Translations under genes and position numbers: made by a program
In this document: positions 45,549 through 51,919 of the stretch, one piece after another
Numbering within the stretch: the stretch's first letter is position 1
How the letters are laid out: each line of letters opens with the position of its first letter
The notes under the pieces: model-generated
The model's database searches: none
Told to the model about the DNA's origin: nothing
Seen by the model: only the letters and a program-made list of their open reading frames with translations
Origin: Paramicrobacterium agarici
GTDB taxonomy: Bacteria > Actinomycetota > Actinomycetes > Actinomycetales > Microbacteriaceae
DNA: 64,000 nucleotides
Reading direction: 5' to 3'
Assembly: GCF_002563955.1 (NCBI RefSeq)
Contig: NZ_PDJE01000001.1
Span: 558,001-622,000 of the forward strand

Positions 45549-46121
45549 CTAGGACTGAGGGCCAGGCGCGACAGCGGAAGCGCGAGCATGGAGATCGGCG
45601 AGCTCGTCGAGCTGCCCGGCGAGTGCACGCTCGTGCCGCTCGCTCGCCGCAAAAACGCCGTCCGCGACATGCTCGGCAACCCACGCGATTTCGACGTTGC
45701 TGTGCACGCCGATCATTCCGAGGTTCGCAAGGACCGGCTGAAGGGCGACGACGGCCCGGGTTCCCCCGGCAAGGCCGCCGTAACTCACCAGCCCGACCGG
45801 CTTGTCGCTCCACTCGCGAAAGAGAAAATCCAGGGCGTTCTTGAGCGGTGCGCTGAAGCTGTGGTTGTACTCGGGCATGACGAACATGAACGCATCCGCG
45901 CCGTCGACCTGCCGGCTCCACCGCAGCGTGTGCTCATTGACATACGCGCGAAGCCGAGGGTGCTCCGGCTCGTCGAGGAACGGAAGCTGCAGCTGCGCGA
46001 GGTCAGCGACCTCGATCTCAAACCGGCCATGCTCTCGAGCGCGTTCGACAGCCCATTCGCCAACGGCCGCGCCGACGCGGCCCGGTCGCGTGCTCGCGAT
46101 GACGAGGAGTAGGCGGGGCAT
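45549..46121 (-). CDS. NADPH-dependent FMN reductase
   Basis: 190 residues. Flavodoxin-like fold with LLVIASTRPGRVGAAVGEW at the FMN phosphate site and MPEYNHSFSAPLKNALDFLF, the classic flavin-binding loop. It reduces FMN or quinones with NAD(P)H. Its ATG overlaps the IclR stop by one base, so it is in the IclR operon; it may supply reduced flavin to an oxygenase or act in quinone detoxification. Confidence 0.92.
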   Translation of the reverse strand: MPRLLLVIASTRPGRVGAAVGEWAVERAREHGRFEIEVADLAQLQLPFLDEPEHPRLRAYVNEHTLRWSRQVDGADAFMFVMPEYNHSFSAPLKNALDFLFREWSDKPVGLVSYGGLAGGTRAVVALQPVLANLGMIGVHSNVEIAWVAEHVADGVFAASERHERALAGQLDELADLHARASAVAPGPQS

Positions 46122-46918
46122 CAGCCGACCTCGGCGAGTGGACGGTTCTCGAATCGCGCCCAGTCTCCGCTGATCGCCCCCGCGGCAGTGAGCAGCTTTG
46201 GCAGGTACTCATCGATGAGCGTCTCGACGCTCGTCTCAAGCGCGTGCGCGTTCACGTTGACGGCGGCCACAACGTCGCCGGCACCATTGCGAATGGGCGC
46301 TGCGATCGAGCGGATCGCGGGAGCGAGCTGCTGATCGGTGACAGCCCAGCCGGCCGCGCGGACCTCTCGTAGGGTCTCCTCAATCTCGTCGGCCTCTGGA
46401 TGCCAGGTGGGCGTCACGCCCGACAGTGACGGGATCGTGAGAGTGCGCCGAAGCTCGTCAGGAGGCAGCGAGGCGAGCAGCACCTTCCCGAGCGAGGTCG
46501 ACAGCGCGGGAAAGCGTGTCCCGATCGAGACCGAGAGCGTCACGAGCTTGGGTACGGCTACTCGCGAAACGTAGACGATGTCGGAACCCTCGAGCTGAGC
46601 GATCGAACACGATTGTCCGAGTGAGGCGCTCAGATCAACGAGGTGCGGGCGCGTGAGCTCCCAGATGCCGCTCGAGGACACGTAGGCCATGCCGAGGTCG
46701 AGGACCCGAGGTGTCAACGAGTAGGCGCCGTCGTCGGAGCGCACGTAACCGAGCTCATCGAGGGTCAGCAGAATGCGGCGCACAGTCGGCCGCGCGAGCC
46801 CCGTCTCGCTTGCGAGCTCGCTCAGACTGAGCACATTCCCTCGCGTGCCGAACGCGCGAATGACATCGAGACCTCGTGCTATCGCCTCAATGAATTCGGG
46901 ACGCGTGCTTTCCCGCAT
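46121..46918 (-). CDS. IclR family regulator (PcaR/PobR-like)
   Basis: 265 residues. Winged helix at about 10-75 (RGLDVIRAFGTRGNVLSLSE, TGLARPTVRRILLTLDELGY). C-terminal effector domain with SCSIAQLEGSDIVYVSRV and IRSIAAPIRNGAGDVVAAVN. IclR proteins of this type control aromatic degradation operons. Divergent from the CoA-transferase operon, with a palindrome near each start. Confidence 0.93.
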   Translation of the reverse strand: MRESTRPEFIEAIARGLDVIRAFGTRGNVLSLSELASETGLARPTVRRILLTLDELGYVRSDDGAYSLTPRVLDLGMAYVSSSGIWELTRPHLVDLSASLGQSCSIAQLEGSDIVYVSRVAVPKLVTLSVSIGTRFPALSTSLGKVLLASLPPDELRRTLTIPSLSGVTPTWHPEADEIEETLREVRAAGWAVTDQQLAPAIRSIAAPIRNGAGDVVAAVNVNAHALETSVETLIDEYLPKLLTAAGAISGDWARFENRPLAEVG

Positions 46919-46927
46919 GGTCCTCCT

Positions 46928-47060
46928 CGGTCAACTGTCCGATTTCCGACTCTACACAGGCTCGAGCACAAACTGCACCCTCCGGACGAAGACGTACGGA
47001 TGCTTGACGTACAAGCAAAGCGGCGCTTCAATGGAGTATCGCTATACGGACAATTGTCCG
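46928..47060. promoter_or_regulatory. Pair of IclR operators between divergent iclR and CoA-transferase genes
   Basis: Perfect 14-bp palindrome CGGACAATTGTCCG at 47047-47060, 18 bases before the CoA-transferase start. A second copy, CGGTCAACTGTCCG, lies at 46928-46941 close to the iclR start, with two differences. The two copies 119 bases apart suggest looping or dual control. Assignment to this IclR protein is inference. Confidence 0.75.
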
Positions 47061-47078
47061 AAACGATTGGGAGTAGCA

Positions 47079-48317
47079 ATGACGCCATCCGCTCCGGCAC
47101 CGAGTGCTGCCGAAGAAGCACTGCGGCAGCTCGCCGCCGAAAGTGCCGAGGGCCCGCTGGCCGGCCTGCTCATCGCGGACTTCTCGCGCGTTCTCGCGGG
47201 ACCGTACGCCACGCAGCTGATGGCAGATCTCGGTGCGACCGTCGTGAAGGTCGAGAGCCCTGCCGGTGACGAGACCCGTTCCTGGTCCCCGCCGGAGCGC
47301 GACGGCGTCTCCACCTACTACCTGGGCATCAATCGCAACAAGTACGATGTGGTTCTCGACTTTCGTGACGAGGGCGATCGGAGTCTCGCGCTGGAACTCG
47401 CGCGTCGCGCCGACGTTGTGATCGAGAACTTCAAGCCGGGCGGGCTGCAGAAGTTCGGCCTCGACTACGAGTCCGTGGCCGCGGTGAACCCGGCGGTGAT
47501 CTACGCCTCGATCAGCGGCTTCGGCTCGAAGAAAGGAGCGACGCTGCCCGGTTACGACCTGATCGTGCAGGCAGCATCCGGTCTCATGAGCCTGACGGGT
47601 TCGCCTGACGGCCCCGCCTATCGCAGCGGCGTTTCGGTGTTCGACATCATGACGGGAATGCAGGCCACGATCGGCATCCTCGCGGCGCTGAATCATCGCA
47701 CTCAGACCGGCGACGGGCAGCACATCGAGGTGAACCTGCTCTCGACGGCTCTTTCCGCCATGGCCAACCACAGCTCGACGTATGTTGCCGGCGGGACGAT
47801 TCCCTTCCGAATGGGGAACGCCCACCCCAGCCTCTTCCCCTACGAGCCGCTGCCAGCGAGCGACGGGGAGATCATTATCGTCGCCGCCAACGATCGACAG
47901 TTTGCGAAGCTCGCGGCTGCCATCGGGCGTTCGCACCTCGCCGACGATGAGCGTTTCACGACCACGGAAGAGCGCAACCGCAACCGAGGAGAGCTGCGGC
48001 TTCTGCTTGTCGACGCGCTCGCAGCTCACACCGCCGCAGAGTGGTTCGACATCCTCACCGATGCCGGAATCGCGTGCGGGCCGATCAACACGATCGATGG
48101 CGGCGTCGCGCTCGCGGAACGCCTCGGCCTCGACCCCATCGTGCAGGTCGGCGAGGGCGAGCAGTCCGTGCCGATGATCCGCAACCCGATAACGTTCTCG
48201 CGCACGCAGCCGCGATATGACTCGCCGCCGCCCGCCCTCGGGCAGGATGACGGCCGCATCAGGGCGTGGCTGAGCGGCACACCCGACCATTCAGACGGAG
48301 GATTCGCGAATGACTGA
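47079..48317 (+). CDS. CaiB/BaiF class III CoA-transferase
   Basis: 412 residues from ATG 47079, GGGAG upstream. LLIADFSRVLAGPYATQLMA, LGATVVKVESPAGDETRSW, INRNKYDVVLDFRDEG, and DVVIENFKPGGLQKFGLDY, a pattern where the catalytic Asp follows around residue 170. It moves CoA between acyl donors and acceptors. It is first in an operon with a citrate-synthase-family lyase, so it likely makes a CoA thioester that the lyase cleaves. Overlaps the next gene by 8 bases. Confidence 0.93.
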   Translation: MTPSAPAPSAAEEALRQLAAESAEGPLAGLLIADFSRVLAGPYATQLMADLGATVVKVESPAGDETRSWSPPERDGVSTYYLGINRNKYDVVLDFRDEGDRSLALELARRADVVIENFKPGGLQKFGLDYESVAAVNPAVIYASISGFGSKKGATLPGYDLIVQAASGLMSLTGSPDGPAYRSGVSVFDIMTGMQATIGILAALNHRTQTGDGQHIEVNLLSTALSAMANHSSTYVAGGTIPFRMGNAHPSLFPYEPLPASDGEIIIVAANDRQFAKLAAAIGRSHLADDERFTTTEERNRNRGELRLLLVDALAAHTAAEWFDILTDAGIACGPINTIDGGVALAERLGLDPIVQVGEGEQSVPMIRNPITFSRTQPRYDSPPPALGQDDGRIRAWLSGTPDHSDGGFAND

Positions 48318-49113
48318 GTACCCAACGGGAATCGGAACGAGTACGCCCGAGTCGATCTCGCTGCTCGGGCAGGACCTCGCTGGCGAGCTCCTCGGCCAGG
48401 TCGGCTTCGGCGAACTTGCATATCGACTCGCGACGAAGCGCCAGCCGACGGCGGGCCAGCTCCGCGTATTCGAAGCGGTCCTCGTCTCGCTCGCAGACCA
48501 CGGCTTCACTCCCACAGCTCTTGCCGCGCGCCTCACGTACTACAGCGCCCCCGATTCGCTGCAAGGCGCTGTTGCCGCGGGACTTCTCGGCGGCGGATCC
48601 CGGTTTCTCGGAGTCACCGAAGACACGGGCGCCTACCTCCACGGAATCGTGAAGAATCACGATGACACCGAAGGTTGGGGGAGCGACCGCTGGGACGATA
48701 TCGCCCGCACCGCGATCACCGAGAGCCGCTCCGCCGGCGAGAAGATCCCGGGGCTTGGCCATCCCGTGCACAAGAACGGAGATCCTCGCACCCCGGTGAT
48801 CATGAGGATCGCCGAGGAGTCCGGTGTAAAGGGCGCGCACTTGGAACTGTTCGAGGCCATCGGACGCGTGCACCCCGAGCTTCTCGGACGCACGCTCCCC
48901 CTCAACGGGGCCGGCGTCGCGGGTGCGGCCCTCGTCGATGCCGGGCTTCCCGTCAGCCTGCTCCGAGGCTTCGCGCTTCTTGCGCGCACGGCGGGACTCA
49001 TTGGCCACATCGCCGAGGAAGATGAGAACCCCATCGGCCCCGCAATCTACACGCACGTCGACCGCAACGCGGTATACACGCCGCCCGCAGCACCGGGCGA
49101 GACGGCTCGCTGA
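48310..49113 (+). CDS. Citrate-synthase-family (citryl-CoA lyase-like) protein
   Basis: 267 residues, about the size of the ATP-citrate lyase C-terminal citryl-CoA lyase module. Key segments: QPTAGQLRVFEAVLVSLADH (helical), VAAGLLGGGSRFLGVTEDTG, KIPGLGHPVHKNGDPRTP with the catalytic-type His, and FALLARTAGLIGHIAEED. Family members make or break citryl-type CoA bonds. Here it likely cleaves a citrate-like CoA ester formed after ring opening. GGAGG lies eight bases before the ATG. Confidence 0.85.
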   Translation: MTEYPTGIGTSTPESISLLGQDLAGELLGQVGFGELAYRLATKRQPTAGQLRVFEAVLVSLADHGFTPTALAARLTYYSAPDSLQGAVAAGLLGGGSRFLGVTEDTGAYLHGIVKNHDDTEGWGSDRWDDIARTAITESRSAGEKIPGLGHPVHKNGDPRTPVIMRIAEESGVKGAHLELFEAIGRVHPELLGRTLPLNGAGVAGAALVDAGLPVSLLRGFALLARTAGLIGHIAEEDENPIGPAIYTHVDRNAVYTPPAAPGETAR

Positions 49114-49148
49114 CCCCAGCCCTCAATCACCGACTCAAAGGAGAGAAC

Positions 49149-50012
49149 ATGGCGACACTGAGTGCGGTGCTCGCGACGACGCACCACCCGTTCTATCTGA
49201 AGGCGACCGAACTGACGCCGCCGGAAGAACGCATACCCCAGGCAGCAGAGTGGAAGCGAAAAGTCGAGGCGTACCGCGAGACGCTGACGGCAGCCGATCC
49301 AGACATTCTCGTGATGGTCGGCGCTGATCACTTCCATCAGTTCTTCTCCGATAACTATCCGACGTTCCTCATCGGAAAACAGCCCACATACGACGGAACG
49401 TTTTACAACGAGGAGCGCGAATTCAGCATCCCGAAATATGTTCTCGACGGGCATGAAGAGCTCTCGGGCTACATGCTCCAGGGCCTGCTCGACCGCGGCT
49501 TCGACTTCTCCGTCAGTCACGAGCTCAAGATCGACCATTCGATCATCTGCCCGATCATTACCACTCGACCTCAGGCCGATCTGCCGATCGTGCCCATCTA
49601 CACAAACATCTTCGCGCCACCGCTTCCGTCCCCGAAGCGGTTCTGGGATCTCGGCCGGGCCATCCGCTCGATCATCGACGAGTACCCGTCCGACGCGAAG
49701 ATCGCAGCCGTTGGCAGCGGACACCTGTCGCTCGAGCTCGGTGGGCCCCGGCAGTTCGGTGAAACGGGGCCGGATCCCGAGTTCGACAGGCAGGCGATCG
49801 AGTGGCTGAGCACGGGCAACGTTGACGCGATTCTCGAGAATGTGACGCACGAAAGCATGGCTGGAGCCGGGAACGCAACACACGGTTTCATGGACCTCAT
49901 CCTCATGATGGGCATCGCCGGCCCGGAGGCCGCTGCCTACACGGACAGCCTCGATCTCTTCCACACGATGGAGGCCTACATCACCTGGTACCCGAACGGA
50001 GATCCGCGATGA
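49149..50012 (+). CDS. Class III extradiol ring-cleavage dioxygenase, catalytic subunit (LigB-like)
   Basis: 287 residues. The fold of protocatechuate 4,5-dioxygenase beta subunits: HHPF with His12, VGADHFHQFF with His61, DHSIICPIITTR, and AVGSGHLSLELGGP. His12 and His61 match iron ligands of LigB; a Glu near 235 would be the third. It opens a catechol- or gallate-type ring with O2. The small subunit follows at once (4-base overlap). Confidence 0.92.
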   Translation: MATLSAVLATTHHPFYLKATELTPPEERIPQAAEWKRKVEAYRETLTAADPDILVMVGADHFHQFFSDNYPTFLIGKQPTYDGTFYNEEREFSIPKYVLDGHEELSGYMLQGLLDRGFDFSVSHELKIDHSIICPIITTRPQADLPIVPIYTNIFAPPLPSPKRFWDLGRAIRSIIDEYPSDAKIAAVGSGHLSLELGGPRQFGETGPDPEFDRQAIEWLSTGNVDAILENVTHESMAGAGNATHGFMDLILMMGIAGPEAAAYTDSLDLFHTMEAYITWYPNGDPR

Positions 50013-50383
50013 GCACGTACTACGTGAACAAGTTTCTCTATCAAGTTGACCGGGATCCCGAGCTCCTCGCGCAATACAAGGCGAACCCTCAGTCGATGGT
50101 CGATGACTGGGATGCCGATTTCGGACGTCGCCTCGGTAACGGCGCGACGGTCGAGCGCACGAGTTGGCTCTCGCTTGAACCGGAGGAGCGCCAGGCGCTC
50201 GTCGACCACGACTACGTGGCGCTGTTCGAGATGGGTGCCCACTTCTTCCTCACGCTCACCATCTTCATCGCCATCTACGAGGAAGACTATGCCGCCCAGC
50301 ACGGGCCGCTGTCGTTCCAGCGCGAGTACGCATCGAAGCTCTCCCATTGGCTTGGCACGAGCTACCCGAGCGTCGCGCTCTGA
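50009..50383 (+). CDS. LigA-like dioxygenase small subunit
   Basis: 124 residues. LigA superfamily pattern: VNKFLYQVDRDPELLAQYKA, LSLEPEERQALVDHDYVALF, MGAHFFLTLTIFIAIYEEDY. In protocatechuate 4,5-dioxygenase the alpha subunit covers the active site. Starts inside the end of the LigB-like gene, supporting a paired enzyme. Confidence 0.9.
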   Translation: MSTYYVNKFLYQVDRDPELLAQYKANPQSMVDDWDADFGRRLGNGATVERTSWLSLEPEERQALVDHDYVALFEMGAHFFLTLTIFIAIYEEDYAAQHGPLSFQREYASKLSHWLGTSYPSVAL

Positions 50384-50431
50384 ACAGAGCAGCATCCATT
50401 CCCCGCCACCCCCAGGCAAAGGAGCCGAACA

Positions 50432-51919
50432 ATGACACAGGAGACAACCCCACTTCCCCGCGACGGTCAGCCGATCGTGTTTCGCAACGGCACGGTGCTG
50501 ACGATGAACGGCCGACGCGACGTCCTGCACAAGGGCGACGTGCTGGTCTCGAGAGACACCATCGACGCCGTGGGCACGGCGCTCGAGGTGCCAGAAGGCA
50601 CATTCGAGATCGACGCCGACGGCGGCATCCTCATGCCCGGCATGATCGACACTCACCGGCACATGTGGCAGACCGCCATGCGGGGCTACGGCGCCGATTG
50701 GACGCTCACGCAGTACTTCGTCTGGTACTACCTCGAGTATGGCAAGCACTTCCGACCGCAAGACATCTACGCCGGCAACGCGCTTTCGGCCATGGACGCG
50801 ATCGACGCCGGAGTCACGACGACCGTCGATTGGTCGCACGGGCTGCGGACCATTGAGCACGCGGAAGCAGCACTCGACGCTCTTCGCGCTTCGACGGGAC
50901 GCTTCGTCTTCGCGCCGGGGAACATCTTCGGCGCACCATGGGAGTGGGCGTCCAACCCCGAGTTCACGCGGTTCATCCGTGACAACAACACCGAGTCGGA
51001 GATGCTTCGATTCCAGCTTGCATTCGATGTCACGGGCGATCCTGAATTTCCCGAGCGAGGTGCTTTTGAGACGGCGCGCGAGCTCGGCCTCCCCGTGACG
51101 ACGCATGCGGGAGTGTGGGGAGCGACGAATGACGACGGCATCCGCCTGATGTATGAAAACGGCTTCATGACGCCCGAGACCGTCTATGTGCACGCGGCGA
51201 CGCTGAACAACGACTCCTATCAGCGCATCGCGGCAACCGGCGGCTCCGTTTCTCTCTCGACCGAGAGCGAGCAGAGTTGCGGGCAGGGCTACCCACCGTC
51301 GTGGGTGCTCCGGACCCACGCGATCCCCATGTCGCTTTCCGTCGACACGAGTGTCTGGTTCTCGAGTGACCTGTTCTCAGCGATGCGAGCCACTCTCGGC
51401 GCCGACCGCGCCTGGGAGCACATCAAGGCACACGAGAAGGGAGACACCATCACGCATTCCCACCTGCGCGCCGAACACGTCGTGGAGTGGTCGACGCTGG
51501 GTGGCGCGAAGGCTCTCGGAATCGACGATCTCGTCGGAAGTCTGGAGCCTGGAAAGAAGGCCGACGTGGTGCTCGTCAAGAACGATACGTCGCCGACGAT
51601 GTTCCCGATCATGAATCCGTACGGACACATTGCCCTGCAGGCAGGGCGCGCAGACGTGCACACCGTGCTCGTCAACGGAGCGATCGCAAAGTTCCAGAAC
51701 GAACTTCTCGATTCCGAGGTCGCGCGCGCGAAGGCAGACGTCGAGCAGACTGTCGATTATCTGCGGAGCACACTCGGCGACGACGTCTGGGAGTCCGGAA
51801 TGAACCCAGAGATACCCGAGACTAAGGTGCTCGACAATCCGTACATGTACACCGACTACCGCAGTGACGCGACCCATCGGGGAGCGGAGCCCGAGGACGC
51901 GGAGCCCGCCGTGAGCTGA
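50432..51919 (+). CDS. Amidohydrolase family protein (ATZ/TRZ/deaminase type)
   Basis: 495 residues. GGILMPGMIDTHRHMWQTAM with the metal-binding His-x-His, VTTHAGVWGA, YVHAATLNN, and SLSVDTSVWFSSDLFSAMRA with the last metal ligand, then the C-terminal beta sandwich LGSLEPGKKADVVLVKNDTS-like segment. This branch removes amino or chloro groups from heteroaromatic rings or deaminates. AAAGGAG precedes the ATG. It probably acts before or after the dioxygenase in the same operon. Confidence 0.9.
   Translation: MTQETTPLPRDGQPIVFRNGTVLTMNGRRDVLHKGDVLVSRDTIDAVGTALEVPEGTFEIDADGGILMPGMIDTHRHMWQTAMRGYGADWTLTQYFVWYYLEYGKHFRPQDIYAGNALSAMDAIDAGVTTTVDWSHGLRTIEHAEAALDALRASTGRFVFAPGNIFGAPWEWASNPEFTRFIRDNNTESEMLRFQLAFDVTGDPEFPERGAFETARELGLPVTTHAGVWGATNDDGIRLMYENGFMTPETVYVHAATLNNDSYQRIAATGGSVSLSTESEQSCGQGYPPSWVLRTHAIPMSLSVDTSVWFSSDLFSAMRATLGADRAWEHIKAHEKGDTITHSHLRAEHVVEWSTLGGAKALGIDDLVGSLEPGKKADVVLVKNDTSPTMFPIMNPYGHIALQAGRADVHTVLVNGAIAKFQNELLDSEVARAKADVEQTVDYLRSTLGDDVWESGMNPEIPETKVLDNPYMYTDYRSDATHRGAEPEDAEPAVS

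Follow-up and report, generated by a model that had tools for sequence, protein, structure and literature searches.

What becomes of a ring-cleavage product when the genes beside a LigAB-like dioxygenase encode a coenzyme A (CoA)-transferase and a citrate-synthase-family lyase? The question is raised by an operon of Paramicrobacterium agarici (Microbacteriaceae), whose 3.23 Mb genome we refer to as G000. The operon lies in a 64,000-nucleotide stretch of contig NZ_PDJE01000001.1 (positions 558,001 to 622,000; the whole stretch is called the window here, and positions are counted from its first letter). We confirmed five open reading frames on the plus strand between 47079 and 51919, which encode a CoA-transferase, a citryl-CoA-lyase-like protein, LigB, a LigA-like protein and an amidohydrolase; an IclR regulator and a flavin mononucleotide (FMN) reductase are divergently encoded on the minus strand. 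A preliminary description, made from the sequence alone, had recognized the five genes and their IclR regulator but overlooked the FMN reductase. The predicted frames were all present and their families matched, with LigA scoring below its cut-off.

In the protocatechuate 4,5-cleavage and gallate pathways, LigAB or GalA is followed by LigC, LigI, LigJ and LigK, or by GalB and GalC. The operon resembles these systems in its LigB and LigA-like pair but carries a CoA-transferase and a lyase in place of the hydratase and aldolase. As the preliminary description had noted, none of LigC, LigI, LigJ or LigK was recognized beside it (nine genes checked, 44.3–51.9 kb). Genome-wide searches, which covered LigK and LigB but not LigI, LigJ, LigC or GalB, gave no sign of such a pathway elsewhere: the best LigK match reaches 150.6 bits against a cut-off of 304.5, and the only LigB match is the operon’s own. 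We consider it likely that ring opening is here coupled to CoA activation and a citrate-synthase-type carbon–carbon cleavage. The gene set is widely shared and unstudied, and its ending – probably ring opening followed by a CoA-using, citrate-synthase-like split – differs from those of textbook pathways. A search of titles and abstracts in the open-licence PMC literature found no description of the module, and passages in PMC13118837 and PMC2864759 deal with other genes.

A conserved gene set with exchangeable dioxygenases

To examine conservation, we sampled loci through the lyase. A scan of genome contigs returned at least 566 relatives, from which the best 80 were used, so that the sample is biased toward near relatives of the window lyase. 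Together with seven short loci (the window among them) and three plasmid loci, this gave 90 loci, in which some genomes are perhaps represented twice. By title, the contigs from the scan belong to Actinomycetota, Chloroflexota and, for one assembly, Acidobacteria; many are metagenome bins. The CoA-transferase and lyase were both present in 85 loci, and in all 85 the CoA-transferase gene stands immediately 5' of the lyase gene. Of these loci, 68 also encode LigB and 67 LigA, which directly follows LigB in every LigB locus except L057. The constant adjacency and order, together with the frequency of LigB, argue that the gene set is not a chance assembly; the coupling of LigAB-like, CoA-transferase and lyase genes seen in the preliminary description is conserved. 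An IclR relative occurs in 62 of the 85 loci and an FMN reductase relative near the module in 9, with FMN-reductase-type genes also near the plasmid copies L109 (Pfam-checked), L110 and L114.

We call ‘full-flank’ the 58 loci that extend for 3.5 kb or more to each side. LigB is encoded in 46 of them, an intradiol dioxygenase in 8, and a PcpA-like dioxygenase in 6, four of which also encode LigB. At least one of these ring-cleavage genes is present in 56; none of the three types was found in the other two, L021 and L102. An amidohydrolase at least 42% identical to the window’s is encoded in 46. Five sampled loci lack the CoA-transferase. Two of them (L047, L075) start at a contig edge, and the others are L044, L051 and L055. 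In L044 (6433–8004) and L051 (6487–8007), whose contigs end shortly past the lyase, the transferase’s position directly before the lyase is taken by a frame resembling an AMP-binding CoA ligase (identified by eye).

The core of the set also occurs on plasmids. Lyase, CoA-transferase, LigB and LigA are found together on alphaproteobacterial plasmids of Sinorhizobium, Aminobacter and Martelella, with a partial set in Neorhizobium. The Sinorhizobium LigB is 84% identical to that of the window, while the plasmid lyases are about 37% identical and precede the CoA-transferase – the reverse of the order above. The amidohydrolases of the Sinorhizobium and Martelella plasmids are 30% identical to the window’s, and none is listed for Aminobacter. 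LigB is also encoded in another Paramicrobacterium genome (G004). On two Rhizobium plasmids (L111:4425-5653, L113:13974-15202) there are LigB/LigA pairs, with LigB about 70% identical to the window’s, near which no CoA-transferase or lyase is listed; neighbors include sensor kinases, in L113 of VirA-like type, as well as a cytochrome P450 and a cytochrome-c peroxidase, and the pair may work in another setting there.

None of the 85 loci encodes both LigB and the intradiol enzyme. With 46 LigB and 8 intradiol loci among the 58, the probability of this exclusion is 2.6e-7 under an assumption of independent loci, which these are not. On a quick lyase tree (92 rows, some of them long; of the 89 inner branches, 29 are left open), the intradiol label, carried by 10 rows, requires 8 changes, at least 5 of which are forced by well-supported branches. 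Among the sister pairs that differ in this label, one in Arthrobacter consists of a LigAB locus (L081) and an intradiol locus (L076), and a separate intradiol case (L124) falls in a proteobacterial clade.

The replacement enzymes bear on what LigAB makes. For the intradiol proteins of L050 and L124, the solved structures that match best are hydroxyquinol-type dioxygenases, ahead of protocatechuate 3,4-dioxygenase; the other eight were identified by 39–75% identity to the L050 protein, with L054 and L076 the least similar. For the PcpA-like protein of L056, the best solved match is 2,6-dichlorohydroquinone 1,2-dioxygenase. By their nearest relatives, then, two of the three putative dioxygenase types point to maleylacetate. 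The recurrent exchange and these matches make it very likely that the product of LigAB is the same as that of a hydroxyquinol-type dioxygenase. This repeated swap of unrelated dioxygenases also opens a direct way to approach the substrate by experiment.

Catalytic residues of the encoded enzymes

We compared active sites across the sampled copies. Lyase rows were counted at 50% identity or more and amidohydrolase relatives at 42% or more; this left out three lyase rows and one amidohydrolase row of lower identity, and seven rows of each with a stop in the extracted frame.

In LigB, H12, H61 and H130 are kept in all 68 copies, at the positions known from protocatechuate and gallate enzymes. The site departs from theirs at two places. 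Both histidines of the 2-His-1-Glu iron site are kept, but glycine (Gly246) stands in place of the glutamate that is its third ligand, and leucine (Leu195) in place of the catalytic histidine of the GGLSH motif, each in 68 of 68. His192, three residues before Leu195, is likewise conserved in 68 of 68, and His245 in 67. We considered His245 as a shifted third ligand and rejected it, because an alignment with two MhpB proteins, a gallate dioxygenase and E. coli YgiD puts Gly246 at the glutamate place. Both MhpB proteins and the gallate dioxygenase have glutamate there, as does one further class III protein; His234 of YgiD aligns with the third-ligand place, in a weak alignment that does not line up the first two YgiD ligands. 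The nearest solved relatives of LigB are gallate and protocatechuate dioxygenases, and 1583 proteins match it at E ≤ 1e-20. Among the 120 matches listed, names are generic where given (‘protocatechuate 4,5-dioxygenase beta chain’, ‘DODA-type’). Judged by sequence, the predicted active site of the 68 copies contradicts both names, with glycine where those families have glutamate or histidine.

A LigB relative on plasmid pAtK84c, annotated as a 2,3-dihydroxybiphenyl dioxygenase (L138:5001-6163; 33–36% identical), also has glycine at the third-ligand place and histidine at position 192, which suggests that the altered metal site is wider than the module.

The lyase scores 283 bits (cut-off 193) with the NCBIfam model PRK06224.1-5, a citryl-CoA lyase subfamily. 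It shares His64, His151, Arg160 and Arg226 with citryl-CoA lyase (6hxp) and citrate synthase but has His154 where 6hxp has tyrosine, and Ala201 (LNGAG) replaces the catalytic aspartate of 6hxp (LNVDG). The preliminary description had named the lack of the catalytic histidine and aspartate in an alignment as grounds for refutation, and half of this was observed: both citrate-synthase histidines are kept, while alanine replaces the aspartate in 83 of 83 rows, leaving these lyases without the full His-His-Asp set. In a separate comparison of 20 lyases, 19 have alanine, serine or threonine at this place and L008 alone keeps aspartate. L008 (254–2205) is a CoA-transferase/lyase pair, 32% and 28% identical to the window’s, in a same-genus genome (G002) that has no close copy of the window lyase; its lyase is a natural control for the clade lacking aspartate.

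Distant lyases stand in other contexts. We reached 11 regions through distant lyase hits (L104, L105, L115–L123), for which gene tables are incomplete. Acyl-CoA dehydrogenases are listed in six of them (L104, L105, L115, L119, L121, L123), and no thiolase is listed in any of these six stretches. Such contexts suit the release of acetyl-CoA from a 3-oxoacyl-CoA or a 3-hydroxyacyl-CoA, and they do not tell the two apart. In L123 (5127–5864; Roseomonas), a gene of the Asp/Glu racemase family, to which maleate isomerases belong, lies two genes upstream of the lyase.

The CoA-transferase shows the marks of class III: besides its family match, 95% or more of 83 rows keep the FD of its VFDIMTG motif, which contains the aspartate (D189) that is the catalytic residue of this class.

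The amidohydrolase was described initially as deaminase-type. The family assignment holds, in that the HxH motif, the strand-5 and strand-6 histidines and the strand-8 aspartate are kept in the window protein and all 44 relatives, as in the COG0402 deaminases (TrzA/AtzA, guanine and 8-oxoguanine deaminases). The active site departs from it: the glutamate of the HxxE motif, present in the best solved relative, is valine in the window protein and in 44 of 44 relatives, a residue test that speaks against a deaminase. The suggestion of an amino- or heteroaromatic substrate rested on the deaminase label and is not supported. Close amidohydrolases (≥42%) never occur with flavin adenine dinucleotide (FAD) hydroxylases or LeuD (0 of 85 loci, with flanks incomplete in some), and L101, which has both, encodes only an amidohydrolase about 30% identical. 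Of the five full-flank LigB loci without a close amidohydrolase (L028, L036, L081, L088, L101), four have an FAD hydroxylase, and L088 has a CocE-type hydrolase and LeuD. This mutual exclusion suggests that the amidohydrolase probably either supplies the ring substrate by hydrolysis or substitutes for a hydration step. Three of the operon’s five enzymes thus appear, from their sequences, to belong to named families while lacking part of the catalytic set.

Readings of the pathway

The reading that we favor, tentatively and at somewhat less than even confidence, is that the operon encodes a lower pathway for a hydroxyquinol-type ring, with 1,2- and 1,4-related hydroxyl groups, or a close analog, via maleylacetate. 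Ring opening by LigAB, with its re-wired metal site, would yield a beta-keto dicarboxylic acid – in all likelihood maleylacetate, with or without substituents – and the CoA-transferase would convert this acid to its CoA thioester. In a reaction with water, the lyase lacking aspartate would then cleave the beta-keto thioester, giving acetyl-CoA plus a C4 acid of maleate type that could enter the citric acid cycle by LeuCD-type hydration or by isomerization. Maleylacetate reductase would be bypassed. The FMN reductase may hold the hydroquinone in its reduced form, and the amidohydrolase may deliver the ring substrate or act at the step of the FAD hydroxylase that replaces it in some copies. A more specific version – a reductase-free lower pathway of this type shared by Actinomycetota and Pseudomonadota, with a LigAB devoid of a carboxylate ligand and a beta-ketoacyl-CoA hydrolase devoid of aspartate that yields acetyl-CoA and maleate – we regard as doubtful. 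Should the favored reading hold, aromatic degradation would be wrongly annotated in many genomes of soil bacteria, reduction would not be the sole fate of maleylacetate, and a new reaction would be added to those of the citrate-synthase fold.

The gene content of other copies is consistent with this proposal. Of the small operons, that of a Burkholderia glumae plasmid (L124) is the most complete: it encodes an intradiol dioxygenase, the lyase, an FAD hydroxylase, the CoA-transferase, LeuC, LeuD and a TIM-barrel protein; insertion sequences lie further outward, and no maleylacetate reductase is listed. Each of these enzymes except the TIM-barrel protein finds a place in a route from phenol through hydroxyquinol, maleylacetate and maleylacetyl-CoA to acetyl-CoA and maleate, and on to malate. 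Maleate hydratase is a LeuCD-like enzyme; compared with that system, LeuC and LeuD stand in the L124 operon and an extra LeuD occurs elsewhere, but neither is beside the module in the source genome. A LeuD gene is found close to the module in L036, L083, L088 and L101, and close to the lyase in L047; in the genomes of L036, L083 and L088, the three examined for this, it adds a second copy to the usual leuCD. As candidates for the next step in the source genome itself, one LeuC scores above its cut-off and the Asp/Glu racemase family has one match; both lie away from the window. Its aconitase-like gene at G000:676597-677838 has neighbors that suggest no link to the operon. The same genome encodes a 647-amino-acid aconitase-like protein (L134:5896-7839), next to a thiamine-diphosphate-type enzyme (by eye), in addition to leuC and to an aconitase match within a 941-amino-acid frame.

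The known hydroxyquinol pathway runs through hydroxyquinol 1,2-dioxygenase, maleylacetate reductase, 3-oxoadipate CoA-transferase and a thiolase. The module is like it in the hydroxyquinol-type intradiol enzyme that replaces LigAB in 8 of 58 loci and in its quinone-handling neighbors but differs in that a reductase-like gene adjoins it in only 5 of 85 loci. We say ‘reductase-like’ because the iron-alcohol-dehydrogenase neighbor in L056 matches ‘alcohol dehydrogenase IV’ (3iv7) best, with maleylacetate reductases (3w5s, 3hl0) lower among its matches. Searched with this L056 protein, the source genome gave no match, while 18 of 59 genomes matched in the same search. A hydroxyquinol-type intradiol dioxygenase also had no match in the source genome, in a search that had no positive control, though its query finds relatives in other loci. 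We further searched 42 genomes of sampled loci, mostly isolates, for the reductase at a threshold of E 1e-40; 25 had no match, including 24 of the 35 with a LigB-type module.

Several observations weigh against the maleylacetate proposal. A normal extradiol enzyme would not yield maleylacetate from hydroxyquinol, so that the proposal needs an altered LigAB regiochemistry. With its aspartate missing, the lyase has no residue that would obviously protonate the acetyl-CoA enolate. Reductase relatives are present in 17 of the 42 genomes: 11 of 35 with LigB-type modules, 5 of 6 with intradiol-type modules (L050, L074, L076, L079 and L098, not L092) and the one with a PcpA-type module. The bypass argument is therefore weaker for intradiol-type copies, whose genomes usually encode a reductase somewhere, and in L056 and L070 a reductase-like gene and a thiolase adjoin the module. 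L124 is the only locus with LeuC next to the module, and a second LeuC occurs in only one of the three genomes with an extra LeuD. The amidohydrolase has no assigned step in most copies, and in the lyase locus L055 no CoA-transferase, CoA ligase or dioxygenase was recognized. The intradiol label on the lyase tree is hardly clustered (8 changes against a shuffled mean of 9.6), and some of its changes may be tree noise. Finally, the PLSDB gene tables for the plasmid loci are incomplete.

Part of this evidence suits an alternative in which the CoA-transferase and lyase act before ring cleavage. An acetic-acid side chain would be removed from a dearomatized tertiary alcohol as acetyl-CoA, leaving a quinone for the FMN reductase to reduce and the dioxygenase to open. 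Retro-aldol cleavage of a tertiary alcohol is known chemistry of the lyase fold, and genes for an FMN reductase, DoxX, an azoreductase-like protein (by eye) and a PIG3-like quinone reductase (below its family cut-off) recur nearby; the reductase and thiolase kept by the L056 type, and the reductase relatives in five of six intradiol-type genomes, would also be accounted for. We nevertheless judge this unlikely, since most modules show no recognizable dearomatizing oxygenase and the L124 operon would list no route for maleylacetate. We considered the auxin (iad) pathway (PMC12633357, PMC9613470) as a direct model of side-chain removal driven by CoA and dropped it: the enzymes described in PMC12633357 are an AMP-forming ligase and one annotated as a ketothiolase, not this lyase.

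A different substrate would remove the need for odd regiochemistry. If the ring were 1,2,3,5-tetrahydroxybenzene or an analog (a hydroxylated phloroglucinol), extradiol and intradiol cleavage of the vicinal triol would, by our reasoning, give the same product, 2,4-dioxoadipate, whose CoA ester would be split into acetyl-CoA and oxaloacetate; the exchange of dioxygenases would then be explained. L028, L036 and L101 carry an aryl-ketone-hydrolase-like protein and an FAD hydroxylase, the L036 copy of the former having 2,6-dihydroxypseudooxynicotine hydrolase as its best solved match. This substrate leaves the LeuCD of L124 and the maleylacetate-reductase-like neighbors unexplained, and we consider it similarly unlikely.

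The preliminary description had instead envisaged a gallate- or protocatechuate-like ring, opened by LigAB, with hydration to the citrate-like tertiary alcohol 4-carboxy-4-hydroxy-2-oxoadipate, CoA activation and lyase cleavage to acetyl-CoA and an oxo acid. The solved relatives of LigB and the citryl-CoA lyase family of the lyase both agree with this, and the hydratase could be of LeuCD type or, by analogy with LigJ, an amidohydrolase-superfamily enzyme. The same proteins argue the other way in detail: the lyase lacks its aspartate, LigB lacks its glutamate ligand and catalytic histidine, and the exchanged intradiol enzyme is nearer to hydroxyquinol 1,2-dioxygenases in the two tested. A simple aldolase ending would, moreover, require no CoA. 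The route in this form now appears improbable. That LigB and LigA are no longer oxygenases, with a non-aromatic module substrate and replacement enzymes belonging to a different pathway, would fit the loss of the third ligand and catalytic histidine in all 68 copies but is highly improbable given the retention of H12, H61 and H130 in the same 68 and the recurrent exchange with relatives of known ring-cleavage dioxygenases.

Layout of the operon and its neighbors

The genes of the locus are closely packed. The CoA-transferase and lyase frames overlap by 8 nucleotides and those of LigB and LigA by 4, with gaps of 35 and 48 nucleotides at the remaining junctions; the start codon of the FMN reductase and the stop codon of the IclR gene have one base in common. 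The CoA-transferase start at 47079 is the one we infer within a frame open from 46773. A consensus promoter was sought in the divergent control region and none was found, which says little for this organism.

Table 1. Features of the operon and the divergent genes, in window coordinates.
Feature	Coordinates	Strand	Evidence
NADPH-dependent FMN reductase, probable quinone reductase	45549..46121	-	PF03358, 124 bits
IclR-type regulator, PcaR/PcaU/PobR-like	46121..46918	-	PcaR/PobR-type model 266.8 bits, below cut-off 284.75
Divergent control region, 160 nucleotides	46919..47078	.	coordinates
Class III (CaiB/BaiF) CoA-transferase	47079..48317	+	PF02515, 391 bits
Citrate-synthase-family ‘citryl-CoA lyase’ without catalytic Asp	48310..49113	+	Citrate_synt PF00285; PRK06224.1-5
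LigB-like catalytic subunit, altered metal site	49149..50012	+	LigB PF02900, 98 bits, cut-off 26.3
LigA-like small subunit	50009..50383	+	PF07746, 22.9 bits, under 25.3 cut-off; directly after LigB
Amidohydrolase, PRK08204/COG0402 type, without HxxE Glu	50432..51919	+	Amidohydro_1 PF01979

A gene of MetE/UroD-like methyltransferase type recurs close to the module in L034, L058, L060, L097 and L110 (10959–11984), hinting at methoxylated substrates.

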